From an uncultured Coriobacteriaceae bacterium (GTDB taxonomy: Bacteria > Actinomycetota > Coriobacteriia > Coriobacteriales > Coriobacteriaceae), in assembly GCA_944319885.1 (NCBI GenBank), contig CALUFC010000009.1:1-64000 (forward strand): a stretch of DNA of 64,000 nucleotides. Direction: 5' to 3'. This document shows positions 20,651-42,347 of the stretch, piece after piece; positions within the stretch are counted from its first letter, which is position 1, and each line of letters begins with the position of its first letter. Below the pieces are notes generated by a model. That model made no database searches, was not told the DNA's origin, and saw nothing but the letters and a program-made list of their open reading frames with translations. Both the position numbers and the translations under genes were made by a program.

Positions 20651-20721
20651 ATTTTGCTTGGCGAACACAGTATCTCCATGTGCGCGCCAAAGGAAAACCT
20701 CTCAAGGTTAAGGAGGTAGGT

Positions 20722-21714: not shown

Positions 21715-21727
21715 GAAGGAGGGAAAC

Positions 21728-22540
21728 ATGTCGGTATTCACAATCATCCTGATTGTTATCGTTGCCTTCCTCGCCGGCATGGAAGGCATTCTTGACCAGT
21801 GGCAGTTCCATCAGCCGCTCGTCGCGTGCACGCTCATCGGTTTGGTGAGCGGCCACTTCGAGGCTGGCATCATCTTGGGCGGTACGCTCCAGATGATGGC
21901 TCTCGGTTGGGCAAATGTTGGTGCCGCTGTTGCCCCTGACGCGGCCCTTGCATCGGTGGCATCCGCGATTCTGATGGTTATCGCAATGAACGGCGGTGCC
22001 GATCAGGGCGAGGCCATCTCCACTGCTATCGCCGTCGCCGTGCCGCTTTCCGTGGCAGGCCTCTTCCTCACGATGATCGTTCGTACGCTCGCCATCCCCG
22101 TCGTCCACATCATGGATGGCGCTGCGGCGCGCGGTGACTTCATGGCCATCGACGTGTGGTCCATCATCGCCATCTGCATGCAGGGCGTCCGTATCGCCAT
22201 CCCGGCAGCGGCGCTTTGCTTCATTCCGTCCGACGCCGTGATGTCGGTCCTCAACATGATGCCTGCATGGCTCAACGAGGGCATGACCATCGGCGGCGGC
22301 ATGGTTGCTGCTGTTGGTTACGCGATGGTCATCAACATGATGGCTACCAACGAGGTTTGGCCGTTCTTCGCGCTCGGCTTCTGCCTCGCTGCCATCTCCC
22401 AGCTCACCCTCATCGCCCTCGGTGTCATCGGCATCTCCTTCGCCCTGATCTACCTGGGTCTCAAGGACGTTGCTAAGTCTGGCGCCGGTGCTGCCGGCTC
22501 GGGCGACCCGCTGGGCGACATCCTGGACGACTACGAGTAA
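21728..22540 (+). CDS. manY: PTS mannose-family transporter subunit IIC
   Basis: 270 residues with AAGGAGGG six bases before the ATG. An integral membrane protein with roughly eight to nine hydrophobic stretches. The family signature is in the N-terminal half (EGILDQWQFHQPLVACTLIGLVSGHFEAGIILGGTLQMMALGWA region) with the GAAVAPDAALASV block. Together with IID it forms the sugar channel; the ManY/ManZ pair is also the docking site for some class II bacteriocins in other bacteria. The acidic tail GDPLGDILDDYE is typical. Confidence 0.95.
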   Translation: MSVFTIILIVIVAFLAGMEGILDQWQFHQPLVACTLIGLVSGHFEAGIILGGTLQMMALGWANVGAAVAPDAALASVASAILMVIAMNGGADQGEAISTAIAVAVPLSVAGLFLTMIVRTLAIPVVHIMDGAAARGDFMAIDVWSIIAICMQGVRIAIPAAALCFIPSDAVMSVLNMMPAWLNEGMTIGGGMVAAVGYAMVINMMATNEVWPFFALGFCLAAISQLTLIALGVIGISFALIYLGLKDVAKSGAGAAGSGDPLGDILDDYE

Positions 22541-22557
22541 GGAAAGGGGGAGATATC

Positions 22558-23502
22558 ATGGCAGAGAATAAGGTTACGCTGTCTAAGAACGACCGCCTTG
22601 CCGTTTGGTTCCGTCATCAGTACCTCCAGGGTTCTTGGAACTACGAGCGTATGCAGAACGGCGGCTGGTGCTTCTCGATGATTCCCGCCATCAAGAAGCT
22701 GTACACCAACAAGGAAGACCAGATCGCAGCGCTGAAGCGCCACATGGAGTTCTACAACACGCATCCGTACGTGTCGTCTCCTGTCATCGGCGTCACCCTC
22801 GCACTCGAGGAGGATCGCGCGAACGGTGCTCCCGTCGAGGACGCGGCTATTCAGGGCGTTAAGGTTGGTATGATGGGCCCGCTCGCCGGTGTCGGCGACC
22901 CCGTCTTCTGGTTCACCCTTCGTCCGCTGCTCGGTGCTCTCGGTGCCTCCCTCGCGATGGGCGGCTCCATCATGGGTCCGATCCTGTTCTTCGTGGCGTG
23001 GAACGTTATCCGTCTCGCGTTCGAGTGGTACACGCAGGAGTTCGGTTACAACCTCGGTACCTCCATCACCAAGGACCTCTCCGGCGGTCTGATGGGCAAG
23101 ATCACCGAGGGCGCTTCCATCCTCGGTATGTTCGTCATCGGCGCGCTCGTTGAGCGCTGGGTGTCGATCTCCTTCGCGCCGACGGTCTCCACCGTCACGC
23201 AGTCCGAGGGCGCCTACATCGACTGGAATGCCATCGCCGAAACCGCCAATGGCGGCGGCCAGGGTGTTGCCGACGCGATCCACAGCGCGCTTTCGCAGTA
23301 CGCTTCGCTCGGCGCGACCGGCCTTGAGGTCGAGAAGGTCACGACCCTTCAGGCCAACCTCGACAGCCTCATCCCCGGCCTTGCGGCCGTGGGCGTGACG
23401 CTGCTGTGCTGCTGGCTGCTGAAGAAGAAGGTTTCCCCGATCGTCATCATCATCGGCATGTTTGCTGTCGGCATCGTGGGTCACCTCATCGGCCTGCTCT
23501 AA
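22558..23502 (+). CDS. manZ: PTS mannose-family transporter subunit IID
   Basis: 314 residues; GGAAAGGGGGAG precedes the ATG. The long soluble N-terminal helical part (RHQYLQGSWNYERMQNGGW..., LKRHMEFYNTHPYVSSPVIGVTLALEE) and the GPLAGVGDPVFWFTLRPLLGALGASLA segment are characteristic of IID. Membrane segments lie at ~120-165, ~190-205 and at the extreme C-terminus (~275-312). Works as a complex with IIC. Confidence 0.95.
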   Translation: MAENKVTLSKNDRLAVWFRHQYLQGSWNYERMQNGGWCFSMIPAIKKLYTNKEDQIAALKRHMEFYNTHPYVSSPVIGVTLALEEDRANGAPVEDAAIQGVKVGMMGPLAGVGDPVFWFTLRPLLGALGASLAMGGSIMGPILFFVAWNVIRLAFEWYTQEFGYNLGTSITKDLSGGLMGKITEGASILGMFVIGALVERWVSISFAPTVSTVTQSEGAYIDWNAIAETANGGGQGVADAIHSALSQYASLGATGLEVEKVTTLQANLDSLIPGLAAVGVTLLCCWLLKKKVSPIVIIIGMFAVGIVGHLIGLL

Positions 23503-24144: not shown

Positions 24145-25407
24145 GTGGCGACGAGACAATCCAACGACCACTTCATTTCGCGGCGCGCGACCCAGGGTCC
24201 TTCGGGTGCGCGCCCGGCGGGTACTCGATTCAAAGATCAGTCCACACCGAGAAAACGGGTATCTCAGAGCTCCTATACGACGCGTTCGCACGCTGCCGCG
24301 TCCTCGCGTCCTCGAACGGGCGTCCAGGCGGCCTATACACGCCGTTCGCCCAAGAAGCAGAGCAAGGCCTCGGCGCTTCCCGTCATCATCGCGATCGTGG
24401 TCGTCGTGGGCGTTGTTGCCGGGTTTGTGACGTTCGGGCTGCCCGCGATCGCCAACCTGTTGACACCGGGGGAGCAGCAAACGGTCGAGGCGGGCGTCGA
24501 GGTCCAGATCAACATCCCCGAGGGTGCTTCAGGCGATATCATCGCCTCGACGTTGTCCGAAAACCATATCATCGAGGATCCCCAGGTATATTACGCAACC
24601 GTGCGCGAGATGCGCGCGGATTCCTCGCTCAAGCCGGGTGACTATGTGTTCACCACGCTGCAGGATCCCAAGGAGGTCGTGCAGCAGCTCATCGACGGTC
24701 CGAATGTCGACACGATCAAGGTGACCGTGGCCGAGGGCTTGACCGTCGATCAGACTGCGGCCCAGGTCGAGCAGGCCTTCGGTATTCCAGCCGATGAGTT
24801 CCTCGCGCAGGCGAAGGCGTCTAACTACGCGGCCGATTACCCCTTCCTCGAGGGCGCCTACAACGACTCGCTCGAGGGATATCTGTATCCCAAGACCTAC
24901 TCGTTCACCCATACCCCCTCGGCCGATGAGGTCATTCGCGTCATGCTCGATCAGTTCGAGATCGAGACAGCCGACCTTTCCCTCTCCGATGGCGCAAACG
25001 GCCTTTCCGAGCAGGAGATCGTGACCATGGCCTCGCTCATCGAGCGCGAGACGCGCGTGGAGGATGAGCGTCCGCTGGTGGCGGGCGTCATCTACAACCG
25101 CCTTGATGAGGGCATGCCCCTGCAGATCGATGCCGCCATCGTGTATGCGCGCGGCGGTGGCAACGAAGCCGTGACCTACGACGATCTTGAGATCGATTCT
25201 CCCTACAACGTCTACGAGAACACCGGCCTCACTCCCGGGCCCATCTGCAGCCCCTCGGTCTCGTCCATCAAGGCGGCGATGTCGCCGGAGAAATCCGATT
25301 ATCTCTACTACGTGCTTTCCGCCAAAAACGATGGGACGCATGTGTTCAGCGAGTCCTATGACGAGTTCCTTGAGAACCGCAAAGCCTACCAGGATGCCCG
25401 CTCATGA
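24145..25407 (+). CDS. mltG: Endolytic murein transglycosylase MltG (YceG-like)
   Basis: 420 residues from the GTG at 24145, which has GGAGGGA four to five bases upstream; an ATG at 24130 lies ahead of that site. The basic N-terminal region (~75 residues) is followed by one transmembrane helix (LPVIIAIVVVVGVVAGFVTFGLP). A LysM-like YceG subdomain (INIPEGASGDIIASTL) and the catalytic region come next. The active-site Glu is in MASLIERETRVEDERPLVAGVIYNRL, with the LTPGPICSPSVSSIKAA motif near the end. It cleaves nascent glycan strands and sets their length. Its stop overlaps yqeG. Confidence 0.95.
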   Translation: MATRQSNDHFISRRATQGPSGARPAGTRFKDQSTPRKRVSQSSYTTRSHAAASSRPRTGVQAAYTRRSPKKQSKASALPVIIAIVVVVGVVAGFVTFGLPAIANLLTPGEQQTVEAGVEVQINIPEGASGDIIASTLSENHIIEDPQVYYATVREMRADSSLKPGDYVFTTLQDPKEVVQQLIDGPNVDTIKVTVAEGLTVDQTAAQVEQAFGIPADEFLAQAKASNYAADYPFLEGAYNDSLEGYLYPKTYSFTHTPSADEVIRVMLDQFEIETADLSLSDGANGLSEQEIVTMASLIERETRVEDERPLVAGVIYNRLDEGMPLQIDAAIVYARGGGNEAVTYDDLEIDSPYNVYENTGLTPGPICSPSVSSIKAAMSPEKSDYLYYVLSAKNDGTHVFSESYDEFLENRKAYQDARS

Positions 25408-25901
25408 GCATATTCACCCCGGGACGCTACGTAGCTTCGGTTGAGCGCATCGACCTCGATGGGCTCTGGCGGGCGGGAAAACGCACCCTGCTGCTCGATC
25501 GCGATAACACGCTCGTGCCGCGCGACCGCACGACAGCCCCCGAGTCCGTTTCGGCTTGGCTTGATCATGCGCGCAAGCTGGGGTTTGAGCTCTACATGGT
25601 TTCGAACAACTGGCATCGTTCTCAGGTTATGGCTTCGGCGGGGCAGCTCGGGCTCGGCGCGATCAGCCACGCCATGAAGCCCGCGCCGTTCGCGTTGCGC
25701 GCCGCGCTTACACGCTTGGGCGCGCGACCCGCGCAAGCGGTGATGATCGGTGATCAGCTCTATACCGACGTCGCCGCGGGCAATCTCGCCGGAATCGATA
25801 CGATCCTCGTCAAACCGCAGGCTACGGCCGATCTGTGGTATACGCACATCTTCCGCATCTTCGAGCGGCGCGCGCTGCGCGGGGTGCCCTGCGAGGAGTA
25901 G
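25404..25901 (+). CDS. yqeG: YqeG-family HAD phosphatase
   Basis: 165 residues, ATG overlapping the mltG stop (ATGA). HAD motif I is LLLDRDNTLVPRD at ~30-42 with the nucleophile Asp. Motif II is MVSNNWHRSQV, the conserved Lys lies in AMKPAPFALR, and motif III/IV is MIGDQLYTDVAAGNLAG. The family (TIGR01668) is a small cap-less HAD phosphatase; a relative in yeast is the mitochondrial phosphatidylglycerophosphate phosphatase GEP4. A phospholipid role is therefore possible but unproven here. Confidence 0.92.
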   Translation: MSIFTPGRYVASVERIDLDGLWRAGKRTLLLDRDNTLVPRDRTTAPESVSAWLDHARKLGFELYMVSNNWHRSQVMASAGQLGLGAISHAMKPAPFALRAALTRLGARPAQAVMIGDQLYTDVAAGNLAGIDTILVKPQATADLWYTHIFRIFERRALRGVPCEE

Positions 25902-25906
25902 CCGCA

Positions 25907-26440
25907 ATGGCTGGATGCGTGAAGCGCGGGTGCGACCATATCTTTTTCATCGGCTTTCTGGGTACGGGCAAGTCCACGCTCGCCCGCAATCTGGGCAGGC
26001 TTTTCAATCGGCGGTATACCGATACCGATCGCATGGTGGAGCGCCTGAGCGGAAAGCGCGTTGGTGCGCTGTTCGCCTCTATGGGCGAGGCGGGCTTTCG
26101 GCAGCTCGAGACCAGGGCCCTCAAGCGCTTGCGTGCCGAACGGAGCCTGTTGGTTTCGTGCGGTGGCGGCATCGTCGAGACGTCCGAGAACATCGAGCTC
26201 ATGCATGAGATGGGGTATTGCGTGTATCTCGATGGCGATCTGGAGGACTCCATCCGTCAGATTCGCTCGTTTGCGGCGCGCCCCGATTTTCAGTCTCCCG
26301 AGCATGCGCGCGAGCTCCTTGCCGCTCGACGGCCGCTTTATGAACAGGCAGCCGATTTCACCATCGATATCAGGGGTCGCACCTTTGAAGAGGTTTCATA
26401 TGGGTGCGCAGAGGTACTTTTGGAGCGTGGTTTACTATGA
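25907..26440 (+). CDS. aroK: Shikimate kinase, free-standing copy
   Basis: 177 residues from the ATG at 25907, five bases after yqeG. Phosphorylates shikimate with ATP. The P-loop is GFLGTGKS at 16-23, the shikimate-binding Asp lies in TDTD (39-41 region), GEAGFRQLE carries the conserved Arg, and CGGGIV is the substrate glycine loop. An ARRPLYEQ motif matches the C-terminal Arg site. All key residues look intact. The window also carries a second shikimate kinase fused to AroE at 34323. The stop overlaps the next start (ATGA). Confidence 0.88.
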   Translation: MAGCVKRGCDHIFFIGFLGTGKSTLARNLGRLFNRRYTDTDRMVERLSGKRVGALFASMGEAGFRQLETRALKRLRAERSLLVSCGGGIVETSENIELMHEMGYCVYLDGDLEDSIRQIRSFAARPDFQSPEHARELLAARRPLYEQAADFTIDIRGRTFEEVSYGCAEVLLERGLL

Positions 26441-27537
26441 CGGTCAGGCGTCAGCTGTTGAGCTTTGCGGGAAGAAACGTCGATTTTCGCGTGGGGGCCG
26501 GCGCGCTCGAGTCGTTTGAGAGCATGGCGCGCCGTGCGGTCGGCAAGCCCGTTCGTGCGCTCATGATCTCGGATGGCAGCATCGGCGAGGAGCGCGAGGT
26601 GTATCTCGAGCGCTGCCTGATCGATGCGGGATTCCATGTTGAGCGCTGTGCGTTCGAGGATGCGTCCGCACCTGCTTCGTTTGTAGACATCGCCACCATG
26701 ACCGATGCGATGGGACGCGCCCATATCACTGTCGACGATCTCGTGCTCGCGGCGGGAAGCGCCCGCACCTGCTCCACTGCAGCCTTCGCTGCGCGTCTCT
26801 GGCAGGGCGGAACCCCGTGCGCGCTCATTCCGGTGACGCTTGCGGGGATGGCGCTGTGCCCGACAACCATGCAACCCCTTGCGACCTTGGCTACAACGGG
26901 CATGGTTGCGCTGCGCTGCGAGCCCGCGCTCGTGGTGTGCGATCTCGAGCTCGTCCGCAACGCATCCGACGATGTCTTCTGCGCGGGTCTCGTCGAGGTG
27001 GTTGCAGCCGCCATGGCCGACAGCAAGCGGTCATGGGAGCGCCTGGGAACTCAGATCGACGCCCTTGCCGCGCACGATGAGCTTGCGCTCACCGATGCGC
27101 TCTGCATGGTGCAGACCGCCCGCCGCTCGGTGATGATGGCAGCCAACCCCTCGTCCCGTCATGCGTTGAGCTATGGCCATATCACCGCAGAGGCGCTTCG
27201 CACGTGCCTGGGGGATGCGATTCCTGCATGGCAGCTTCTTGCCGAGGGCATGCGTTTCGAGGCGCGCCTTGCCGTCGATGCGTGCGGCTTCTCGGTTGAT
27301 GATGTCTTTGAACAGGATGATCGTCTCGATGACCTTGGTATCCCCGAGCTTCCGTTCGAGCTTGATCCCGCGCGCTTTATCGAGGCGTTCCGCGCTCAGC
27401 AGGCGCTGCGTTCGAATCGCCTGCTTGTTGCGCTGCCGCGTACGCCGGGCTCGATTCGCCTCGCCAGCGTTGAGGACGATGTTCTCGAGCGCCATGCACG
27501 CGCCTACACCGCATCACGCGCCGACCTGCTGGCGTAG
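26437..27537 (+). CDS. AroB-fold paralogue with a lost active site
   Basis: 366 residues from the ATG at 26437, overlapping aroK (ATGA). The overall course follows 3-dehydroquinate synthase, for example SDGSIGEEREVYLERCLIDAG, then DDLVLAAG, and SYGHITAEAL. Comparison with the intact AroB at 39230 shows the NAD loop GGGVTGD replaced by GSARTCS (107-113). The GGKT lysine loop is gone, and the lysine of GEVIK has become Ala. Of the zinc ligands, E187 and H248 remain but the third His aligns with A264. The DKK motif near the C-terminus is also missing. Dehydroquinate synthesis is therefore unlikely. The open frame is intact, so a different role is probable. Confidence 0.8.
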   Translation: MTVRRQLLSFAGRNVDFRVGAGALESFESMARRAVGKPVRALMISDGSIGEEREVYLERCLIDAGFHVERCAFEDASAPASFVDIATMTDAMGRAHITVDDLVLAAGSARTCSTAAFAARLWQGGTPCALIPVTLAGMALCPTTMQPLATLATTGMVALRCEPALVVCDLELVRNASDDVFCAGLVEVVAAAMADSKRSWERLGTQIDALAAHDELALTDALCMVQTARRSVMMAANPSSRHALSYGHITAEALRTCLGDAIPAWQLLAEGMRFEARLAVDACGFSVDDVFEQDDRLDDLGIPELPFELDPARFIEAFRAQQALRSNRLLVALPRTPGSIRLASVEDDVLERHARAYTASRADLLA

Positions 27538-27589: not shown

Positions 27590-28720
27590 ATGACAGGAGC
27601 CGTTGCCGGCCCGCGTGGCCGTATCGCCCGCGTTCGTGCGCTCATGGAGGAGCGCGGTTACGATGCCGTCGTCGTGCGCGATGAGGCAAATCTGCGCTGG
27701 CTCACCGGCGCCGAAGGCGTCTTCGATTTCACCGGCGAGCTGCCGCACGCGGCGTTCATCACGCAGCAGGAGACGCTGCTTCATACCGATTCTAGGTATT
27801 TCAACAGTTTCCAGGAGCATCTCGAAGCCGAGACGCCGTGGATGCTCGACATGGATGTCATCGACATACCGCGCTGGGTAGGGGAGAAGGCGCGTGCGCA
27901 TCGCTGCCATGTGGTCGCGGTCGAGGACACGATGGAGCTCTCCTTCTATTTCGGTATGCTTCGTGCGTTCGAGGATCTCTCGATCTCGGTTACGGTGCCG
28001 CAGATGCATGGCGACCTCCGGCTCATGCGCGCGATCAAAGATGACGAGGAGCTCGCGCTCATGCGCCATGCGCAATCGATCACCGATGCGGCGTTTCAGC
28101 ATATGCTGGGCGAGATTCGCCCGGGTCGCACCGAGAAGGAGCTCAAGCTCGAGCTCGAGCGCTTCATGTTCGAGCATGGGGCGGATTCGCTCGCGTTCGG
28201 AACGATCGTGGCGTCGGGTCCCAACACGGCCAATCCGCATGCCATCCCCAGCGACCGCGTTGTCGAGCGCGGCGACTTCGTCCTCATGGATTACGGCGCG
28301 GGCTTCCATGACTACTGCTCCGATATGACGCGCACCGTGGTGGTGGGCGAGCCCACGGCCAAGCAGCGCGAGATCTACGACATCGTGCAGCGCACCCATG
28401 AAACGTGCGTCGAGGCGATTCATGCCGGCGTTGACGGGCGCGACATCCACATGCTTTCCGTCAAGCTCATCGGCGACGCGGGCTATGGCGACTACTATGG
28501 CCATGGCCTGGGGCATGGCGTGGGCATCGACATCCATGAGCTGCCCAACTTCGGCCGGAAGAGCAATATCGTCGAAGAGGGCGCCGTCATAACGGTTGAG
28601 CCCGGCATCTACCTGCCCGGTGTTGGCGGCGTGCGCCTTGAGGACTACGGCGTCGTCACGCGCGAGGGCTTCGCGCCCTTCACCACCTCGCCCCACGAGC
28701 TCCAGATCATCGACTGCTAG
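27590..28720 (+). CDS. Xaa-Pro aminopeptidase / Xaa-Pro dipeptidase (M24B)
   Basis: 376 residues; GAGAGGA precedes the ATG. The N-terminal creatinase-type domain (1-~130) is followed by the pita-bread metallopeptidase. Metal ligands are visible in order: Asp in LMDYGAGF, Asp in CSDMTRT, His in YGHGLGHGVGIDIHE, Glu in VITVEPGIYLPG, and Glu in VRLEDYGVV. It removes N-terminal residues preceding proline, or splits Xaa-Pro dipeptides, in the cytosol. The neighbourhood aroK-aroB-pepQ-efp-nusB is a conserved actinobacterial order. Distinguishing PepP from PepQ needs phylogeny. Confidence 0.93.
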   Translation: MTGAVAGPRGRIARVRALMEERGYDAVVVRDEANLRWLTGAEGVFDFTGELPHAAFITQQETLLHTDSRYFNSFQEHLEAETPWMLDMDVIDIPRWVGEKARAHRCHVVAVEDTMELSFYFGMLRAFEDLSISVTVPQMHGDLRLMRAIKDDEELALMRHAQSITDAAFQHMLGEIRPGRTEKELKLELERFMFEHGADSLAFGTIVASGPNTANPHAIPSDRVVERGDFVLMDYGAGFHDYCSDMTRTVVVGEPTAKQREIYDIVQRTHETCVEAIHAGVDGRDIHMLSVKLIGDAGYGDYYGHGLGHGVGIDIHELPNFGRKSNIVEEGAVITVEPGIYLPGVGGVRLEDYGVVTREGFAPFTTSPHELQIIDC

Positions 28721-28836: not shown

Positions 28837-29403
28837 ATGGCAAGCATCACCACCGCTGATTTCAAGAACGGCATCGGTTTGCGCATCAAGGACAAGGTCT
28901 GCACCATCGTCGAGTTCCAGCATGTGAAGCCCGGCAAGGGCGGTGCATTCGTCCGCTATAAGACCAAGGACATCAAGACGGGCCGCGTGGTCGAGCAGAC
29001 CTGCAACGCCGGCACCAAGTTCGAAAGCGTTACCCTTACTACCACCGAGATGCAGTATCTCTACAACGATGGCGACAACTATGTCTTCATGAACATGGAG
29101 ACCTATGATCAGGTGCCCGTGCCGGAGGACTTCATCGGCGATAACGCCAAGTGGCTCAAGGAGAACGACATCTGCCAGCTGCTCTACGCCGATGACGAGC
29201 TCATGGGCGTGAACCCTCCGATGTTCATCGAGGTCGAGATCACGCAGACCGATCCCGGCTTCAAGGGCGACACCGTTCAGGGTTCCACCAAGCCCGCCAC
29301 GATCGAGACCGGCGCCACCATCCAGGTACCCATGTATCTCAACCAGGGCGAGCGCATCAAGGTCGACACGCGCGACGGCAAGTTCGTTGGCCGCGTCTCG
29401 TAG
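28837..29403 (+). CDS. efp: Elongation factor P
   Basis: 188 residues, typical length, with AAAGG before the ATG. It relieves ribosome stalling at polyproline stretches. The N-terminal KOW-like domain carries the loop VKPGKGGAF, with K34 at the position modified in some bacteria. The central OB domain and C-terminal GDTVQGSTKPATIETGATIQVPMYLNQGERIKVDTRDGKF signature are intact. No epmA/epmB or other modification gene is seen in the window. Placed between the proline peptidase and nusB genes as in many Gram-positives. Confidence 0.97.
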   Translation: MASITTADFKNGIGLRIKDKVCTIVEFQHVKPGKGGAFVRYKTKDIKTGRVVEQTCNAGTKFESVTLTTTEMQYLYNDGDNYVFMNMETYDQVPVPEDFIGDNAKWLKENDICQLLYADDELMGVNPPMFIEVEITQTDPGFKGDTVQGSTKPATIETGATIQVPMYLNQGERIKVDTRDGKFVGRVS

Positions 29404-33818: not shown

Positions 33819-34268
33819 CTAGGTATTCGCGTTCGGTTTGAGATGTTCGGCGAGAAGCGCGAGCGCGTGATCGTACCCGGCGAGCCCCTCGCCCGTGATG
33901 GTGGCAAAGCAGGCAAGCCGGGCATAGGAGACCTGGCGGAAGTCTTCACGCTCCTCGACAGCCGAGATATGCACCTCCACAGCTGGGATGCTCACGGCTT
34001 TCAAGGCATCGAGTATACCGATGCTCGTGTGCGTATAGGCGGCGGGGTTGATGACGATGCCATCGAAGACCCCGTAGGCTTCTTGGATCTTGTCGATAAT
34101 CGCACCCTCATGGTTCGATTGAAAGCACGCGATCTCATCGAAGCCCAGTTCTGCTCCCGCTTGCTTGCAGCGCGCTACGAGGTCGCGATATGACGCGGCG
34201 CCATAGATGCCCGGTTCGCGAATACCGAGCATGTTGATGTTTGGACCGTTGATGACCAGCGCTTTCAT
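33819..34268 (-). CDS. aroQ: 3-Dehydroquinate dehydratase, type II
   Basis: 149 residues, last gene of the minus-strand aro operon. Dodecameric type II enzyme converting dehydroquinate to dehydroshikimate. Visible are LVINGPNINMLG at the N-terminus, the catalytic Tyr Y22 (EPGIYG), FQSNHEGAIIDKI, NPAAYTHTSI, and the catalytic His in VEVHIS. No terminator is evident in the 21 bases before the convergent recN stop, so transcripts may run antisense into recN. Confidence 0.97.
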   Translation of the reverse strand: MKALVINGPNINMLGIREPGIYGAASYRDLVARCKQAGAELGFDEIACFQSNHEGAIIDKIQEAYGVFDGIVINPAAYTHTSIGILDALKAVSIPAVEVHISAVEEREDFRQVSYARLACFATITGEGLAGYDHALALLAEHLKPNANT

Positions 34269-34322
34269 ACCCTGCTCCTTCGATTATGCCCATGATGCCA
34301 TGATTGCATCGATATTCCGTGG

Positions 34323-35609
34323 TCAACGAGACGGATGCGCCGCGCAACCAAGCAGGTTCTGAATCGAGGCTGCGGTCTCCATGGGAGATCCGAGCACCGG
34401 AGCGATCGCATCGGCCCAGGCGCGGTAAACGGGCATGCGCTGTTCGGCGAGGCGCGCGATGCCCTCGCGTTGCGAGAGGGGGCGGCCCGCGCTCGACAGC
34501 TCTTCGAGCGCACGGTCGAGCATCACGATCTGGCTATTCTGGTGGAGGAGCGGATAATTGCGCTCGCGGGTCACCACGCCGCCGCCGCATGAGATCACGA
34601 GCCCGCTGCGCGCCGCAACATCTGCGAGCGCTCGGGTCTCCTCATTGCGAAACGCGGCTTCTCCGAAGGCGGTGATATAGTCGCCGCAGCTCATCTGCAA
34701 GCGCTCCTCGAGCACGTGATCGATGTCGACATGGTCGCGACCCAGAAGCCGGGCGAGCTCTGCGCCCACGCGCGTCTTGCCCGATCCTGGCATACCGATG
34801 AGCGCGATGTTGAGCTCCTGCCGGGATAGGCTATCGGTGACCGCCATGATGCGCTCGAGCGAGATATCCTCGCCGGTATAGCGCTTCACTGCGCCCGCTG
34901 CCTGCGCGACGAGCATGATGAGGCCGCCGACCGCGGGGATCCCGCGCCGCTGTGCGTCCATCATGATGCCGGTGCGCGCCGGGTTGTATACGATATCGAC
35001 GACCGCTTCGAGCTGTGTGAAGCCCTCGAGATCATGGACTTGCGCCGGGCAGTGGGGGAACATGCCCACGGGTGTGGCGTTCACGATGAGCGCGGCATCG
35101 CGCACGCGGTCAAGGTCATCGTAGGTGACGCTGGGCGCGTGCGCAGCGGCGCCGGCGGCGTGACCGTCGCTGCGCGATCGACATACGGCAACCGGCTGCA
35201 TGCCGAGATCCTCGAGCACCACCATCGACGTCGAGCCCGCGCCGCCATGTCCGCCGAACACGAGCGCGCGCTTGCCGGCGAGATCAAGGCCAAGCGATTC
35301 AACAAGCACCTTGAAGCCGTAGTAATCGGTGTTATCTCCTATCAAGCGCCCTGCGGCATCGCGAGTCACGGTGTTCACGTTGCCAAGGCGGCGCGCCACC
35401 GGCGTGAGCTCGTCCATCATCGTTGCAACGAGCTTCTTATAGGGGATGGTGACGTTCACGCCTTCCCAGGCGTCGCCATGGATGAACGCGTCGACATCTG
35501 CCTCATCGCGTTCAAACCGAACGTAGTCAAGTCCGGCAAGTTCACGATAGATGACAGGGGTATAGCTGTGTCCGAGCGTTTTGCCCAGCACGCCGTAGGG
35601 GCGAGCCAT
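34323..35609 (-). CDS. aroE: AroE-AroK fusion: shikimate dehydrogenase plus shikimate kinase
   Basis: 428 residues. Residues 1-~260 are shikimate dehydrogenase. Visible there are LGHSYTP for substrate, the catalytic Lys in NVTIPYKK (~58), GDNTDYYG, and the NADP site VFGGHGGAGSTSM. Residues ~266-428 are a complete shikimate kinase: P-loop GMPGSGKT (272-279), DIDH for shikimate, FGEAAFRNEE and CGGGVV, then a GRPL lid. One polypeptide thus performs steps 4 and 5 of the pathway. The order resembles part of the fungal AROM logic but in a two-domain bacterial form. The pheA start codon neighbours this gene's 5' side (35609/35610), so translation is likely coupled. Confidence 0.95.
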   Translation of the reverse strand: MARPYGVLGKTLGHSYTPVIYRELAGLDYVRFERDEADVDAFIHGDAWEGVNVTIPYKKLVATMMDELTPVARRLGNVNTVTRDAAGRLIGDNTDYYGFKVLVESLGLDLAGKRALVFGGHGGAGSTSMVVLEDLGMQPVAVCRSRSDGHAAGAAAHAPSVTYDDLDRVRDAALIVNATPVGMFPHCPAQVHDLEGFTQLEAVVDIVYNPARTGIMMDAQRRGIPAVGGLIMLVAQAAGAVKRYTGEDISLERIMAVTDSLSRQELNIALIGMPGSGKTRVGAELARLLGRDHVDIDHVLEERLQMSCGDYITAFGEAAFRNEETRALADVAARSGLVISCGGGVVTRERNYPLLHQNSQIVMLDRALEELSSAGRPLSQREGIARLAEQRMPVYRAWADAIAPVLGSPMETAASIQNLLGCAAHPSR

Positions 35610-36755
35610 CTACATCACCTCCGTATAGCTACCGAAGTACCAGTACCGCTCGCATATGTCGTCGAGTGCGTCGAGCAGCGTGGCGAGCGATTGCGATCCA
35701 ACGGGGCAATCAAGATCGAAGTAGAAGATGAATTCGAAGTCGCGTCCCGGAATCGGTCGGCTCTCCAGCTTCACGATGTTGATATCGAGGGCAAAGAAAC
35801 GTTCGAGCACGCGGTAGAGCGAGCCGGGCTCATGCGGCAGCGTGAGCATGAGCGAGGTGCGCGTGGCACCGGGGAAGATGCACGGTTGGGCGGAGACGAC
35901 AACGAACCGCGTATAGTTGTTGTCGGAATCCTGAACGTCCTCATCGAGGATGTCCAGTCCATAGAGCTCCGCGCAGCGACGAGAGGACAGGGCCGCGATG
36001 TCGGGTCTGCCTGTCTCAGCAACAAAGGATGCGGCCTGTGCCGTGTTCTCGCAAACATGGACCTGCGCATCCAAGCCATCGAGATATGACGCGCACTGTG
36101 CGATCGCTTGCTCGTGCGACCACACCTCGCGAATCGCTGAGCGCGTGGTTCCGGGACAGGCGAGGAGGTTATGGTCGATTTTCAGACGGCACGACCTCAC
36201 GATGCTGAATCGGTATTCGGCAAGCAGGTCGTACACGGCGTTCACCGAACCCGCCGTCGAGTTTTCGATCGGCAGGACGCCGTATTCGCAGAAGCCGTCG
36301 CGCACCGCGCGGCACACGCCCTCAAACGTGGCGAAATAGGAGATGGCTGGCACGCGGAACAGGCGCGTGGCGGCTATCTGGCTGTAAGCGCCCTCGACAC
36401 CCTGGCATGCAACCGATGCGACCTCGGGAAACGGTTCGTCCACCGCCTTGAGCGAGCGACGCGCCACCGCGGAGGTCGCCTGTACGTCATCGGAGGCGAG
36501 CACACGTTGCTGCTCGGCCTTGTTCATGCTCATGAGAAGCGAGAACAGGGCAATGGCTTGGGGACGATAGAGGTCCGGGGTGCGAGCAGCCACCTCAGAG
36601 AGCTTCTCGCGCTCGCGCACGGGATCGAACACGGCCTTTTTGGTGCCGCGCTTCGCTTCGGCAACCTGGCGCGCGATTTCCATGCGCTGCGTGAAGAGAT
36701 CGAGGAGCTCGCCGTCGATCTCATCGATGCGGGAGCGTATCTGTCCGAGGTCCAT
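35610..36755 (-). CDS. pheA: Bifunctional chorismate mutase / prephenate dehydratase (P-protein)
   Basis: 381 residues with AAAGGAG before the ATG. Residues 1-~88 are an AroQ-type chorismate mutase (LGQIRSRIDEIDGELLDLF, then RMEIARQVAEAKRG). Residues ~110-285 are prephenate dehydratase with GVEGAYSQIA, PIENSTAGSV and the NNYTRF motif. Residues ~290-375 are an ACT domain (LPHEPGSLYRVLERF and the phenylalanine-binding ESRP). Phenylalanine feedback inhibition is therefore expected. Confidence 0.97.
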   Translation of the reverse strand: MDLGQIRSRIDEIDGELLDLFTQRMEIARQVAEAKRGTKKAVFDPVREREKLSEVAARTPDLYRPQAIALFSLLMSMNKAEQQRVLASDDVQATSAVARRSLKAVDEPFPEVASVACQGVEGAYSQIAATRLFRVPAISYFATFEGVCRAVRDGFCEYGVLPIENSTAGSVNAVYDLLAEYRFSIVRSCRLKIDHNLLACPGTTRSAIREVWSHEQAIAQCASYLDGLDAQVHVCENTAQAASFVAETGRPDIAALSSRRCAELYGLDILDEDVQDSDNNYTRFVVVSAQPCIFPGATRTSLMLTLPHEPGSLYRVLERFFALDINIVKLESRPIPGRDFEFIFYFDLDCPVGSQSLATLLDALDDICERYWYFGSYTEVM

Positions 36756-36767
36756 AGGTTATCTCCT

Positions 36768-37922
36768 TTATTGGGCGCGCTGCTCGTGCGAGCGGTGCGT
36801 ATGCTGCGCATCGTTGGGGGCGGGCGGCATGAACAGATTGTCATCGAGCAGGGCATCGAGCAGCGCGAGCGCGCAGGCGGCCTCGGCAACGGGAACGGCG
36901 CGCGGCACGATGCACGGATCGTGGCGGCCCCGGACGGTCAGGGACGCGTCTTCGCCGGAATCCATATCGACGGTGCGCTGCTCGCGCGCAATCGAGGGCG
37001 TGGGCTTCACCGCCATCTGCCAGATGATGGGCGCGCCGGTGGTGATACCGCCCAAGATGCCGCCGGCGTTGTTCGTTTGAGGTCGGATAGCCGCGCCGTC
37101 CATGCGATACGGGTCGTTATGCTTGCTTCCCGTAAGATAGGCGGCGGCGAAGCCGGCTCCGAAATCGACGCCCTTGACGGCCGGGATGCCGAAGGCGATC
37201 TGCGCGATGCGGTTCTCGATGCCGTCGAACATGGGGTCGCCGGCGCCCACCGGCATGCCGTAGGCAGCGCATTCGATAACGCCGCCGATGCTGTCTCGTG
37301 CGGCCTTCGCGTCGAGGATGGCCTGCTCCATGCGTGCTGCGGCATCCGTTGAGATGCAGGGGAATGCGTGCGTGCGCAGGGCTGCGATCTGGGCCTCATC
37401 GAGGTGCAGGTCATCGAGGCTTTCGTCGGCGATGCCCTCAGGGCCAAGCGCGGCGATATGCGCAACGATCTCCACGCCCATCGTGGCCAGGGCTTGGAGC
37501 GCGATGGCGCCCGCGATGCACAGCGGGGCGGTAAGTCTGCCGGAAAAGTGGCCGCCACCAGCCACGTCATGCCAGTTGCCGTATTTCATGCGCGCGGGAA
37601 AGTCCGCATGGCCGGGACGCGGCTTGGCGCGCAGCTCGCGATAGTCCCCGCTTCGCGTGTTCGTGTTGCGGATAACGGCTGCGATCGGCGCGCCGTTGGT
37701 GTGTCCTTCGGTGATGCCGGAGAGGAGCTCGGGGACATCCGCTTCGGCGCGTGTGGTCGCCGTCTTCGAGCGGCCGGGCGCGCGGCGATCGAGGAAGCGC
37801 TGCAGCGCATCGAAGTCGATGGGAATGCCGGCGGGCAGGCCCTCCAGCGTGCAGCCGATGGCGGGGGAATGCGATTGTCCGAAGATGCTCACGCGCAATG
37901 CATGTCCATACGATGAAGCCAT
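36768..37922 (-). CDS. aroC: Chorismate synthase
   Basis: 384 residues. Converts EPSP to chorismate with reduced FMN. Family blocks: an N-terminal SIFGQSHSPAIGCTLEGLPAG (usual GESHG reads GQSHS here), RRAPGRSKTATTRAE, SGRLTAPLCIAGAIA, and a late HDPCIVPRAVPVAEA segment. The length is within the family range. The start abuts the aroA stop (37922/37923), indicating tight coupling. Confidence 0.96.
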   Translation of the reverse strand: MASSYGHALRVSIFGQSHSPAIGCTLEGLPAGIPIDFDALQRFLDRRAPGRSKTATTRAEADVPELLSGITEGHTNGAPIAAVIRNTNTRSGDYRELRAKPRPGHADFPARMKYGNWHDVAGGGHFSGRLTAPLCIAGAIALQALATMGVEIVAHIAALGPEGIADESLDDLHLDEAQIAALRTHAFPCISTDAAARMEQAILDAKAARDSIGGVIECAAYGMPVGAGDPMFDGIENRIAQIAFGIPAVKGVDFGAGFAAAYLTGSKHNDPYRMDGAAIRPQTNNAGGILGGITTGAPIIWQMAVKPTPSIAREQRTVDMDSGEDASLTVRGRHDPCIVPRAVPVAEAACALALLDALLDDNLFMPPAPNDAQHTHRSHEQRAQ

Positions 37923-39233
37923 CTAGCACTCCTTCTCAAGATCGACCAGACCGCCCAGCTGGCGATAGTGCAAAAAGAAATCGGGATATGATTTGGCAAC
38001 CGCCTCGGCACCGTGGATGACAACCGGTCCGGTGCAGCGCGTGGCGGCGATGGCGGCCATCATGGCGATGCGATGGTCGTTGTGCGCATCGACGACGCCG
38101 CCGTCAAGTGAGTCCACGCCCTCGATGACCAGGTCGTCGCCCTCGATGCGGATGTTCGCGCCAAGGTGCGCAAGCTCCGAGGCGCAGGTTTCCAGGCGGT
38201 CGGACTCCTTGAGGCGTAATCGCGCGCAGTCGCGAATGCGCGTCGTTCCCTCGGCGACGGCGGCGACGGCCGAGATGATGGGAACAAGATCGGGTATGTC
38301 GCGCGCACTCATCTCGTAGCCGCGCAGCCGATCGGGGCGTACGGTGGCCATGTCCGTGGCGCGTCCGATGCGCGCGCCGAAGAGCGAAAGGGCGGCAAGG
38401 ATGTTGCGATCTCCCTGTGCCGAGGTCATCGACAGGCCCCTCACCGTGATAGGGTTTGCGCCCATCGCGCCTGCGCAGAGCCAAAACGCCGCGTTCGACC
38501 AATCGCCTTCGACGGTGATCGCACTCGGGGTGCGATAGCCCTCGCAGCCAACGCGATAGACGGTCACATCGCGCGTGCGGTCGCGGTCGCAGCGCACCGG
38601 CACACCGAAGGCGGCGAGCGCCTGGATGGTGAGATCGATATAGGGCTTGCTTTCGATGGCGCCGTGCACGTGGATCTCGCTGGGGCGTCCCAGCAGCGGG
38701 CAGGCGAGCAAGAGCCCCGAGATGTATTGCGAGCTCACGTTGCCGGGGAGTTCGAATCTACCGGGGCGCAGGCGGCCGGTTGCGGTGAGCGGGAGCCCTC
38801 CTTCAAGCGGCATATCGCAGCCAGCGGCAACGAGCTCATCGGTGAGCGGGGAGAGCGGTCGATCTTTCAGGCGGCCGGCACCGATGAAGGTGGCATCGGC
38901 GCCGAGCGCGCATGCGACGGGCAGCATGAAGCGCAACGTCGATCCAGATTCACCGCAATCGAGCGTGGCACCTGCAAGCGCGCGCAGGATGCCGTGCTCT
39001 TGGCTTTTTGGGATCGGGCGAACGGTGTAGACGCCGTCGCGTCGCGTGATCGCGGCGCCGAGTGCGGTGAGGCAGCGCACCGTGGCATCGATATCGGCGC
39101 ACGTGGTATCGCATGACACCTTGGTCTCACCGTTGGCGAGGGCGGCGGCGATGATGAGGCGATGTGCCATCGATTTCGATGAGATCGCCGTGAGCGATCC
39201 TGTGAGCTGAGATGGTGTGATGCGGGCGATCAT
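37923..39233 (-). CDS. aroA: EPSP synthase (3-phosphoshikimate 1-carboxyvinyltransferase)
   Basis: 436 residues from the ATG at 39233, which overlaps the aroB stop as ATGA; a GTG two codons earlier is less likely. Joins shikimate-3-phosphate and PEP. Signatures: LTGSLTAISSKSMAHRLIIAAALANG (substrate Lys-Ser), DCGESGSTLRFMLPVACALG (LxxGNSGT-like), RPLSPLTDELVAAG, and late RLKESDRLETCASEL and DGGVVDAHNDHRIAMM. The GESGST loop has Glu in place of the usual Asn, and the sensitivity class to glyphosate cannot be assigned by eye. Confidence 0.96.
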   Translation of the reverse strand: MIARITPSQLTGSLTAISSKSMAHRLIIAAALANGETKVSCDTTCADIDATVRCLTALGAAITRRDGVYTVRPIPKSQEHGILRALAGATLDCGESGSTLRFMLPVACALGADATFIGAGRLKDRPLSPLTDELVAAGCDMPLEGGLPLTATGRLRPGRFELPGNVSSQYISGLLLACPLLGRPSEIHVHGAIESKPYIDLTIQALAAFGVPVRCDRDRTRDVTVYRVGCEGYRTPSAITVEGDWSNAAFWLCAGAMGANPITVRGLSMTSAQGDRNILAALSLFGARIGRATDMATVRPDRLRGYEMSARDIPDLVPIISAVAAVAEGTTRIRDCARLRLKESDRLETCASELAHLGANIRIEGDDLVIEGVDSLDGGVVDAHNDHRIAMMAAIAATRCTGPVVIHGAEAVAKSYPDFFLHYRQLGGLVDLEKEC

Positions 39234-40324
39234 GCGCACGCTCCCGTCTGGATGCCGTCTTCGATAAGGTGTTTGAACTCAGCGAGCGAGACGCGTTCGA
39301 TGTTGCAGGCACCGATGCGATGGGGCAGCACGATATCGATCGAATCGCCCGTGCGCTTCTTGTCATGGAGCGCCGCGGCGAAGATCTCATCGGTGGTGAA
39401 CGAGGTGCGCGTCGCAAGGCCGTGCGCCCGGCATGTCGCCTCGATGCGCTCGGGAACATCGTTCCCGCACACGCCGCGCGCCGCTGCGGCGCGCGCGATG
39501 GCCACCATGCCCATCGCCACGCAGGTTCCGTGCCCAAGCTGGTACTCGGCGCATGCCTCGATGGCGTGGCCGATGCTATGGCCGAAATTGAGCAGCTTGC
39601 GCAGGTTCGACTCCCGCTCATCGGCAACAACGACATCGCGTTTTATCTCGATGTTGCGGGCGATCAGGCGCTCGACGTGCGCAAGGTCCCGATGGATGAG
39701 ATCGGCGTTGAGCGGCGTTTGCTCGAGCGTGGCGAACAGATCCTCATCGGCGATGACGCCGTGCTTGATCACCTCGCCGCATCCATCGGCGACGCGCTCC
39801 TCGTCGAGCGTGCCCAAACAACCGATATCGGCGATCACCACATCGGGCTGCCAGAATGCGCCGGCGAGATTCTTGCCCGCCTTGAGGTCGATGGCCGTCT
39901 TGCCGCCCACGGAGGAATCGACCATGGCGAGCAGGCTCGTAGGCATTTGCACGAACCGGCAGCCGCGCATGTAGGTTGCGGCAGCAAAACCAGCGAGGTC
40001 GCCCGTGACGCCGCCACCAAGCGCAACAACGCAATCGGAACGGCTCAACTGCGCCTCGGCGCAGAACTCGAGTGCGTCGATGAGCGTCGCGGCGCACTTG
40101 TGCTCCTCGCCGGCGGGGAAGGTGAAGACGCTCACCGCGTAGCCGGCGTGTTCGAGGCTCTCGCGCACGATGTGCGCATAGAGCGGACCGACGTTGGAGT
40201 CGGTGATGATGACGGCGTGCTCGCCGCCGCAGACGCCGCGAACAATTTCGCCGGTGCGCTCGAGCAGCATCGTGCCGATGACGACCTGGTAGGGTTTGTG
40301 CGTAGTGACATCGATGACGTGCAT
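39230..40324 (-). CDS. aroB: 3-Dehydroquinate synthase
   Basis: 364 residues. NAD- and metal-dependent cyclisation of DAHP. The complete active site is visible: GGGVTGDLAGF (103-113) for NAD, SSVGGKTAID (137-146), metal ligands E184 in GEVIKHG, H249 in NFGHSIGH, and H265 in LGHGTCV, plus DKKRTGD near the C-terminus. This is the functional AroB of the window, in contrast to the degraded paralogue at 26437. Its start lies five bases from the tyrA stop. Confidence 0.97.
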   Translation of the reverse strand: MHVIDVTTHKPYQVVIGTMLLERTGEIVRGVCGGEHAVIITDSNVGPLYAHIVRESLEHAGYAVSVFTFPAGEEHKCAATLIDALEFCAEAQLSRSDCVVALGGGVTGDLAGFAAATYMRGCRFVQMPTSLLAMVDSSVGGKTAIDLKAGKNLAGAFWQPDVVIADIGCLGTLDEERVADGCGEVIKHGVIADEDLFATLEQTPLNADLIHRDLAHVERLIARNIEIKRDVVVADERESNLRKLLNFGHSIGHAIEACAEYQLGHGTCVAMGMVAIARAAAARGVCGNDVPERIEATCRAHGLATRTSFTTDEIFAAALHDKKRTGDSIDIVLPHRIGACNIERVSLAEFKHLIEDGIQTGACA

Positions 40325-40329
40325 AGGCT

Positions 40330-41238
40330 TTATCCTTTGTTCTCGGTCGAAGCGTCTGCTGCGGTATCGTCGAGCGCGCGCTTGATGCGGTCGCCTTCGG
40401 CAAGAAGCATCCGCAGCCGTTCGCGATCGTGTGCGTTGAGGGCGTCGCGGTAGGCGGCGAGCGCATCGATGATGCCATCGATCTCGTACGCGAGGTTCTC
40501 GGCGTTATCGCACATGAGCTCCGACCACATGGAGGGATTGAGGTGCGCCACGCGGGTAAGGTCTTTGTAGCTTCCCGCGGAGAATCCGTGATGCTTGCGC
40601 GCGGTCGGGCTCTTGACATAGGCGTTGGACACCACGTGCGCAAGCTGGCTCGTGAACGCGATGACCTCATCATGCGTCGCGGGATCGCAGACGCTGAAGC
40701 TGCCGAATCCCACAGGCGCAAGCAGGGTGAGCGCGCGATCGAGCAGCGCCAGGCGCTGGGGATCGGGGAGCGTCGGCGGCACGAGGACCATCGGGGCGCC
40801 GACGAAGAGGTCGCGGCGGGCATACGCGAAGCCGGAGTGCTCGGTACCCGCCATGGGGTGCGTGCCCAAGAACGCAAAGCCCCAGCGTTCGGCAAGTGCG
40901 AATGCGCGTGAGCACACCGATGCCTTGACGCCGGCCGTGTCGATAACGAGCGGACCCGATTCAGCCCCCGAGGAAACCGCACCAAGCGCGGTGGCGTGTT
41001 GTTCAAGCCAGCCGAGGCATGCCTCGGGATAGGCTGCGAGCACGATGAGGTCGCATGCGGCCAAGCTCTCGTCGTTCAGCGGCCCGGCAACCGTTTCGAT
41101 CGATGCTGCCTCATAGGTTTCCTCGTCAACATCGTAGGCAAGGACCCGGGCGCCGGCTGCGCGATAGGCGCGTGCGAAGCTGCCGCCAATCAGCCCCAGG
41201 CCCACCACGCCCACAGTGAGGGTGTTGTTGTCGGTCAT
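40330..41238 (-). CDS. tyrA: Prephenate dehydrogenase
   Basis: 302 residues. NAD(P)-dependent oxidative decarboxylation of prephenate towards tyrosine. N-terminal Rossmann loop VVGLGLIGGSFARAYRAAG, substrate motif GTHPMAGTEHSGF with the catalytic His, and the helical dimerisation domain (AHLNPSMWSELMCDNAENL...). No ACT domain follows, so tyrosine feedback through ACT is not expected. The start overlaps the end of the DAHP synthase gene. Confidence 0.95.
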   Translation of the reverse strand: MTDNNTLTVGVVGLGLIGGSFARAYRAAGARVLAYDVDEETYEAASIETVAGPLNDESLAACDLIVLAAYPEACLGWLEQHATALGAVSSGAESGPLVIDTAGVKASVCSRAFALAERWGFAFLGTHPMAGTEHSGFAYARRDLFVGAPMVLVPPTLPDPQRLALLDRALTLLAPVGFGSFSVCDPATHDEVIAFTSQLAHVVSNAYVKSPTARKHHGFSAGSYKDLTRVAHLNPSMWSELMCDNAENLAYEIDGIIDALAAYRDALNAHDRERLRMLLAEGDRIKRALDDTAADASTENKG

Positions 41239-42263
41239 GCCCTCACCGCCGGGTTCTCGGTCACGGCAGCGCGAATGAGCTCGATGCGACGCATGAGATC
41301 ATCGAACATGTCGGGCGTGAGCGCCTGCGCGCCGTCGGACCACGCGTGGCTCGGGTCATCGTGCACCTCGACCTCGAGGCCGTCGGCGCCGGCGGCAACG
41401 GCGGCAAGTGCCATGGGCTCGACGTAGCGGGTGTAGCCGGTGGCGTGGCTGGGATCCGCCACGACAGGAAGATGCGAAAGGTAATGGAGCACGGGCACCG
41501 CGTTGAGGTCGAAGGTGTTGCGCGTGCGCGTCTCGAAGGTGCGGATGCCGCGCTCGCACAAGATCACGTTGTCGTTGCCCTCGCTCATGATGTACTCAGC
41601 TGCCATGAGCAGCTCGTCGATGGTGCCCGACATGCCGCGTTTGAGCAGCACAGGGACGCGCGTCTTGCCCACCTCGCGCAGCAGCGGAAAGTTCTGCGCG
41701 TTGCGAGCGCCGATCTGCATGACGTCGATCTGCTTCTCAAGGAACACGGGGATGTCGCGCGGATCCATGATCTCGGTGACGATGGGCATGCCGAGCTCTG
41801 CGCGGGCTTCGCAGAGCAGGTCAAGCCCGGCCACGCCCATGCCCTGATAGGCATAGGGGCTCGTGCGCGGCTTGTAGGCGCCGCCGCGCAGCATCGTGGC
41901 GCCCGCGGCTTTCACGCGGCGGGCGATCTTGATGAGGTTCTCGCCCTCCACAGAACAGGGGCCGGCGATGACCTGGAATTGACCGCCGCCAAGCGCAATG
42001 CCGGGAGCGATCTCGATCACGCTGTCTTGGGGATGGAACTTCCGGTTCGCCTTCTTAAAGGGTTCGGAGACGCGTTGCACGCGCTCGACGATATCCATCG
42101 ATTCGAGGAGGAAGGGATCGATCTTCGTGGTGTCTCCCACCAACCCGATGATGATCTCGTCCGAACCGCGGCTCACATGCGCCGCGAGCCCCTTCCGTTC
42201 GATCCAAGAAATGAGGTGAGATACGGCGTTTTCGTCGGCGTCCTTCTTGAGAATGGCGATCAT
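41235..42263 (-). CDS. aroF: DAHP synthase (type I-beta, AroF/KDO8P-like)
   Basis: 342 residues from the ATG at 42263, with GGAG seven bases upstream; a longer frame to 42314 would run through the -10 element. First shikimate pathway enzyme, condensing PEP and erythrose-4-phosphate. The N-terminal ~70 residues form a ferredoxin-like regulatory domain, as in Thermotoga DAHPS. The barrel shows VIAGPCSVEGENLI, LRGGAYKPRTSPYAYQG, VPVLLKRGMS, CERGIRTFE, and VVADPSHATG. First gene of the aro operon. Confidence 0.97.
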   Translation of the reverse strand: MIAILKKDADENAVSHLISWIERKGLAAHVSRGSDEIIIGLVGDTTKIDPFLLESMDIVERVQRVSEPFKKANRKFHPQDSVIEIAPGIALGGGQFQVIAGPCSVEGENLIKIARRVKAAGATMLRGGAYKPRTSPYAYQGMGVAGLDLLCEARAELGMPIVTEIMDPRDIPVFLEKQIDVMQIGARNAQNFPLLREVGKTRVPVLLKRGMSGTIDELLMAAEYIMSEGNDNVILCERGIRTFETRTRNTFDLNAVPVLHYLSHLPVVADPSHATGYTRYVEPMALAAVAAGADGLEVEVHDDPSHAWSDGAQALTPDMFDDLMRRIELIRAAVTENPAVRA

Positions 42264-42302
42264 CGGTGTCTCCAGATTCGTTGCGTGCGCATAAGTTGGA
42301 CC

Positions 42303-42308
42303 ATTGTA
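42303..42308 (-). promoter_or_regulatory. -10 element for the aro operon
   Basis: TACAAT on the minus strand, 39 bases before the aroF ATG. No good -35 at 16-18 bases. It lies between the tRNA-Arg terminator and aroF, so the operon can have its own start besides read-through from the tRNA. Confidence 0.45.
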
Positions 42309-42347
42309 TACCACGCCGCTTTCACATCGCCGCGCACCGCGGTATGG

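Follow-up and report, generated by a model that had tools for sequence, protein, structure and literature searches.

Why would a bacterium with a complete set of shikimate pathway genes also keep, directly behind a shikimate kinase gene, a relative of AroB that lacks the dehydroquinate synthase (DHQS) active site? The question is raised by DEV, a gene in the window, i.e. the whole stretch of 64,000 nucleotides analysed here, from an uncultured member of the Coriobacteriaceae (contig CALUFC010000009.1). The main features of the locus are compiled in Table 1. The DEV frame is open, with an ATG start that overlaps the aroK1 stop in an ATGA motif; thus, the gene is intact and coupled to a shikimate kinase, as the original prediction had it. 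The canonical AroB, described there as standing side by side with DEV, does lie in the same window, but ~12 kb away. It is encoded by the sole PF01761 match in the genome and belongs to a second aro cluster made up of aroQ, an aroE-aroK fusion, pheA, aroC, aroA, aroB, tyrA and aroF. The fusion (window 34323-35609) is a second shikimate kinase besides AroK1 and is conserved in both DEV-bearing families. The proposed homology of DEV with AroB is real, though its profile matches remain far under the cut-offs: 45.8 bits (E 4.6e-12) against TIGR01357, with a cut-off of 305, and 22.9 bits against Pfam DHQS_C, with a cut-off of 27.6. Relatives of DEV score 20 to 68 bits against TIGR01357, one giving no match, and the score of DEV against TIGR04425 (an AroB-related putative sugar phosphate phospholyase) is 13 bits for a cut-off of 400.

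Table 1. Features of the DEV locus and of the second aro cluster (positions in the window)
Feature	Position	Strand	Remarks
DEV	26437..27537	+	Intact 366-aa AroB-fold protein; DHQ synthase active site absent
AroK1, native shikimate kinase	25907..26440	+	Kinase and substrate motifs complete; stop overlaps DEV start
yqeG-like HAD phosphatase gene	25404..25901	+	Constant upstream neighbour (synteny); name from sequence
pepQ-like Xaa-Pro peptidase gene	27590..28720	+	Constant downstream neighbour (synteny); name from sequence
efp-like gene	28837..29403	+	Part of the ancestral neighbourhood aroK-aroB-pepQ-efp; name from sequence
Canonical AroB, displacing lineage	39230..40324	-	15/15 catalytic residues
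Complete second aro cluster	33819..42314	-	Conserved in relatives; names from sequence

Each of the active-site losses named at the outset is present in DEV. The NAD loop GGGVTGD reads GSARTCS, the lysine of GGKT is replaced by Gln146 and that of GEVIK by Ala190, the third zinc ligand has become Ala264 and the DKK motif is lost. These losses are more than chance, since a gene with the same losses is conserved family-wide. Among the 15 positions with a catalytic, metal or substrate role, 13 lack conservation in the 65 DEV sequences compared, which come from two families (numbers and roles of residues follow Aspergillus nidulans AroB). In the NAD loop GGGVxGD, the first Gly alone is kept, and the final Asp is changed to Ser in 51/53 and 11/12 sequences. 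The metal ligands Glu194, His271 and His287 are conserved nowhere across the family, and the position of H287 is occupied by A, W, D, P or Y. Within the substrate and catalytic set (D146, K152, K161, N162, K197, K250, R264, N268, H275 and K356), only R264 is kept, and K250 is replaced by Arg. The corresponding DEV residues, R229 at the K250 position and R241 at that of R264, are found in 62/64 and 61/64 sequences, counts that leave out the very divergent sequence of genome G244. Two metal ligands, E187 and H248, had been singled out as retained. Both are present in the DEV of the window, but relatives rarely keep them (E at 187 in 6/53 and H at 248 in 5/53 family members), so that they do not point to a surviving metal site. 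A leftover metal site is ruled out by this non-conservation, and the two residues are local accidents.

The claim that the AroB fold is retained is borne out by a structure model of DEV (pLDDT 95.5, pTM 0.93). The model superposes on the DHQS structure 5eks over 352 residues with Z 41.2 and rmsd 2.5, and on AroB-related sugar phosphate cyclases with Z 33-37; a control model of canonical AroB built from a single sequence had a pLDDT of 35. DEV is confidently predicted to fold fully as AroB.

DEV is present in 66 of the 67 genomes of the Coriobacteriaceae (f1), the family of the window, and every one of the six genera has it; the one genome lacking it is a draft, 72% complete, with the canonical gene only. 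At E<1e-40, it is also found in 137/140 genomes of f5, a family of the same order that we infer to be the Atopobiaceae, sister to the Coriobacteriaceae. The remaining three are G152, with its locus masked by Ns, a fragment of 0.6 Mb, and G244, whose DEV occupies the usual place but is very diverged. The search of relatives for homologues, proposed as a check, thus found an intact frame in essentially all genomes of both families. DEV seems to be lost in G152, and the aro cluster in G046, but both stretches are masked by Ns and say nothing about loss. In G057, the gene is seemingly split; the scaffold that bears it has single Ns and repeated pieces of mltG and yqeG, and the split was taken as an assembly artefact. 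In one draft from the genus of the window (L007 1501-3705), DEV is fused in frame to PepQ in a 734-aa protein that has lost the last DEV residues; this fusion could be real or an assembly error. Outside the order, where plasmid records only were searched, one weak match was found, to a gene annotated aroB.

DEV is retained under purifying selection, a requirement for membership of the pseudoenzyme class. Over 140 close pairs, median dN/dS values are 0.091 for DEV, 0.033 for AroK1, 0.048 for yqeG and 0.025 for pepQ. Between the window and its nearest relative, DEV has a dN/dS of 0.086 (dN 0.080, dS 0.925) and canonical AroB one of 0.088. The most constrained part of DEV is its C-terminal quarter, with dN of 0.03 versus 0.11 in the N-terminal part. 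It could be argued that DEV is slowly decaying or serves as a mere operon spacer: it is less conserved than yqeG, AroK1 and pepQ, with a dN/dS 2-4x theirs, and the PepQ fusion dispenses with its last residues. Such a fate is highly improbable for a gene with a dN/dS of 0.09, equal to that of canonical AroB, near-universal intact frames, a constrained C-terminal quarter and a place in a genome of only 1.0 Mb. A dN/dS near 1, accompanied by stops, had been named as the sign of decay; the value of ~0.09 and the frames intact in two families instead support the initial preference for a retained pseudoenzyme or a new activity.

The origin of DEV is seen in its neighbourhood. In f2 (by our assignment the Eggerthellaceae), f6, f7 and f10, the native locus typically reads ruvX-mltG-yqeG-(aroE)-aroC-aroK-aroB-(aroQ)-pepQ-efp, with some members missing, and its aroB is canonical except for degenerate copies in the f2 genera g35 and g78. 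In the Coriobacteriaceae and f5, AroK1 and DEV remain at this locus, the other aro genes are gone and a second cluster elsewhere has the rest; DEV sits in the ancestral slot yqeG-aroK-aroB-pepQ-efp. A rooted AroB tree, computed without the catalytic columns, unites DEV and native AroB in one clade (100/100); cluster AroB stands apart, close to sequences from Lactococcus and Bacteroides and with less support (94/68). A topology grouping DEV with cluster AroB is rejected (p 0.015). Synteny and the rooted tree together rule out a recent duplicate of canonical aroB, and DEV is best read, from these sequence comparisons, as the native aroB of the order (Coriobacteriales sensu lato), which a separate AroB lineage has displaced. 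The label of AroB paralogue therefore stands as regards common descent (the native clade at 100/100, the same slot), but not in the sense of a side copy of the canonical gene. A mannose-type PTS IIB/IIC/IID set (window 20680-23502; L066 828-3619; L144 6019-8784) lies between ruvX and mltG in the window; the set adjoins pepQ in several f5 genomes and is elsewhere in G058, and these differing places suggest a mobile or rearranged block.

The degenerate copies in g35 and g78 offer a parallel. In g35, the AroB in the native slot (L085 5053-6171; L131 6932-8050) has 0/15 catalytic residues; elsewhere, the genus has a cluster-type AroB with 53% identity to that of the window. The native-slot copy has a dN/dS of 0.20, compared with 0.19 for pepQ and 0.19 for the second AroB, and has lost catalytic columns preferentially, keeping 3/20 of them versus 49/82 of the other invariant columns (P 4e-4). 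In g78 (L128 5192-6583; L130 5799-7169), there are two native-type AroBs, and the copy in the native slot has 3/15 catalytic residues. The gene tree places g35 and g78 beside DEV (98/95 and 97/96), for which reason three independent conversions were dropped as a firm claim. This placement could be due to long-branch attraction, and the AU test does not reject trees that put g35 and g78 in with the native AroBs (p 0.36 and 0.40). It is tempting to propose that native AroB already had a second, non-catalytic job unrelated to the shikimate pathway, and that, once catalysis had passed to another AroB, the active site was lost and the job kept, separately in up to three lineages. We hold the second job only tentatively, as a possibility somewhat short of an even chance, and give the same standing to the count of lineages, which would be the common ancestor of the Coriobacteriaceae and f5, genus g35 and genus g78. 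R18, E270, R273, F274, D294 and mostly H353 are common to native AroB and DEV and absent from most cluster AroBs, a sharing that suggests a function predating the catalytic loss, with an enrichment that is not significant. Indeed, the bias of DEV to residues specific to the native lineage (6/35 versus 3/47) has a P of 0.16, and a statistical case for preferential keeping of a native non-catalytic patch fails on this value. Nor does DEV favour non-catalytic over catalytic residues among the ancestral ones that it keeps (9/82 versus 2/20, P 1.0). The nine non-catalytic columns that DEV retains are all retained in g35 as well (9/9, P 0.007), but g35 is less diverged, and structural constraint could account for this by itself.

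Does DEV still act in the pathway from which it came? Four genomes without detected chorismate synthase or AroA (G058, G311, G234 and G244) keep it. G058 is a single contig of 2,115,681 bases, ~99% complete, in which aroF, aroQ, aroE, pheA, aroA, tyrA and aroC were not detected (masked stretches elsewhere could hide genes), and neither were canonical aroB and the second shikimate kinase. Its AroA-family match of 77 bits is comparable only to the second homologue, itself sub-threshold, of AroA-bearing genomes, and the place after recN, where the cluster is located in the window and in G039, holds housekeeping genes and no Ns. AroK1 and DEV are still side by side in G058. The other three genomes are drafts, and incompleteness weakens each taken singly: no AroC or AroA was found in G311 (86% complete), where AroK1 and DEV are kept, in G234 (86% complete), where AroK1 is lost from the locus and yqeG overlaps DEV directly, or in G244 (94% complete, 1.0 Mb), where AroK1 is lost and DEV, in place, is an extremely diverged protein of 411 aa, about 20-22% identical. 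At the position held by AroK1 in relatives, G244 has a 177-aa ORF resembling a membrane peptidase (L179 8621-10985). DEV persists where the pathway and AroK1 both appear lost, so its role cannot depend on AroK or the pathway alone; it seems to need neither.

These genomes bear on two further explanations. DEV might be only a partner or activator of AroK1, in a two-gene unit like the bacterial AroK-AroB fusions, for which bifunctional models exist in NCBIfam. The ATGA overlap in the window fits this idea, as does the joint retention of the two genes in G058 and G311, neither of which has a detected shikimate pathway, but G234 and G244 keep DEV in place with AroK1 lost from the locus, and AroK1 evolves far slower than DEV, making such an exclusive partnership very unlikely. 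AroK1 itself has lost none of the shikimate kinase motifs, and its evolution is slow (dN/dS 0.03); it persists in G058 (L140 6941-8718), though no other gene of the shikimate pathway was found there. A DEV that goes on producing dehydroquinate, through some unusual mechanism, is scarcely credible: the predicted fold is the same and the R264 equivalent is kept, but the NAD loop, the three zinc ligands and D146, K161, N162, K197, N268, H275 and K356 are lost family-wide, and DEV persists where no downstream enzyme was found.

What, then, is preserved? Near-invariant polar residues in both families are D101, S113, D169, R229, R241, E270, R273, D294, N327, R328, R341 and H353. They could form a new active site, which counts against a pseudoenzyme, and the main rival explanation is a new enzyme, with the AroB cleft rebuilt for a reaction that uses neither an NAD nor a zinc site. 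Several of these residues being near-invariant, a dN/dS typical of enzymes and the independence from AroK1 and the pathway would all suit a new enzyme. On the other hand, the conserved residues do not make up an evident catalytic constellation, variation is free at the cofactor and metal positions (as at H287), and the fold matches in the AroB superfamily are DHQS or known cyclases, mostly crystallised with NAD and/or metal. We consider a new enzyme unlikely, though well worth keeping in view. Our preferred explanation, which we regard as probable, is that DEV is a native AroB that lost DHQ synthase activity and has long been kept as a folded, non-catalytic protein outside the shikimate pathway. 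The loss would date from the common ancestor of the Coriobacteriaceae and f5, after the second aro cluster had taken over the pathway. DEV would be catalytically dead and act through binding: it would either associate with another protein, as an interaction or scaffold partner, or sense a small anionic ligand. The low identity of the G244 protein and the lack of a preference for non-catalytic ancestral residues weigh against this explanation. R229 and R241, at the former substrate site, are a candidate place for binding a small anion. DEV combines homology to AroB, the absence of conserved catalytic residues and maintenance under selection, as pseudoenzymes do, with a putative binding or regulatory role of a non-catalytic kind.

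Few bacterial pseudoenzymes of primary metabolism are, to our knowledge, fixed across whole families. DEV is near-universal in two families of gut bacteria, stays under the Pfam and NCBIfam cut-offs and appears to outlive its own pathway. Catalytic and presumably non-catalytic copies share one genome, and some genomes keep what seems to be a dead copy only. The idea that a second function lies hidden in a housekeeping enzyme can therefore be tested cleanly here. Pseudoenzymes as such are familiar; in the open-licence literature, no report was found of an AroB pseudoenzyme, nor of AroB in Coriobacteriia in such a sense.

Among known systems, AroB itself (TIGR01357; PDB 5eks, 3okf and 3qbd) shares with DEV the full-length fold, the ancestral gene position and descent. 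It differs by the NAD loop, metal ligands and substrate residues that DEV has lost, and DEV is kept where the pathway was not found. The AroB-related cyclases (2-deoxy-scyllo-inosose synthase, ValA and TIGR04425) belong to the same fold superfamily (Z 33-37), but those with solved structures mostly carry NAD and/or a metal, whereas DEV has neither site. In eudicots, a TSB-like pseudoenzyme, a dead paralogue from the aromatic pathway, has an allosteric binding role with TSA as its partner (PMC12727527). Like DEV, it is a retained, dead relative of an aromatic-pathway enzyme; unlike DEV, where 13/15 positions are lost, it has two key residues changed, and its partner TSA is known. In Aro1 of Candida albicans, an inactive DHQase domain persists and contributes to dimerisation, the step being performed by a second enzyme (PMC9074039). 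There, as for DEV, a fold of the shikimate pathway has been left without catalytic residues and its step taken over by a second enzyme. However, the dead domain of Aro1 is a type I DHQase within a fused protein, in a fungus still running the pathway, whereas DEV is free-standing and persists without it.
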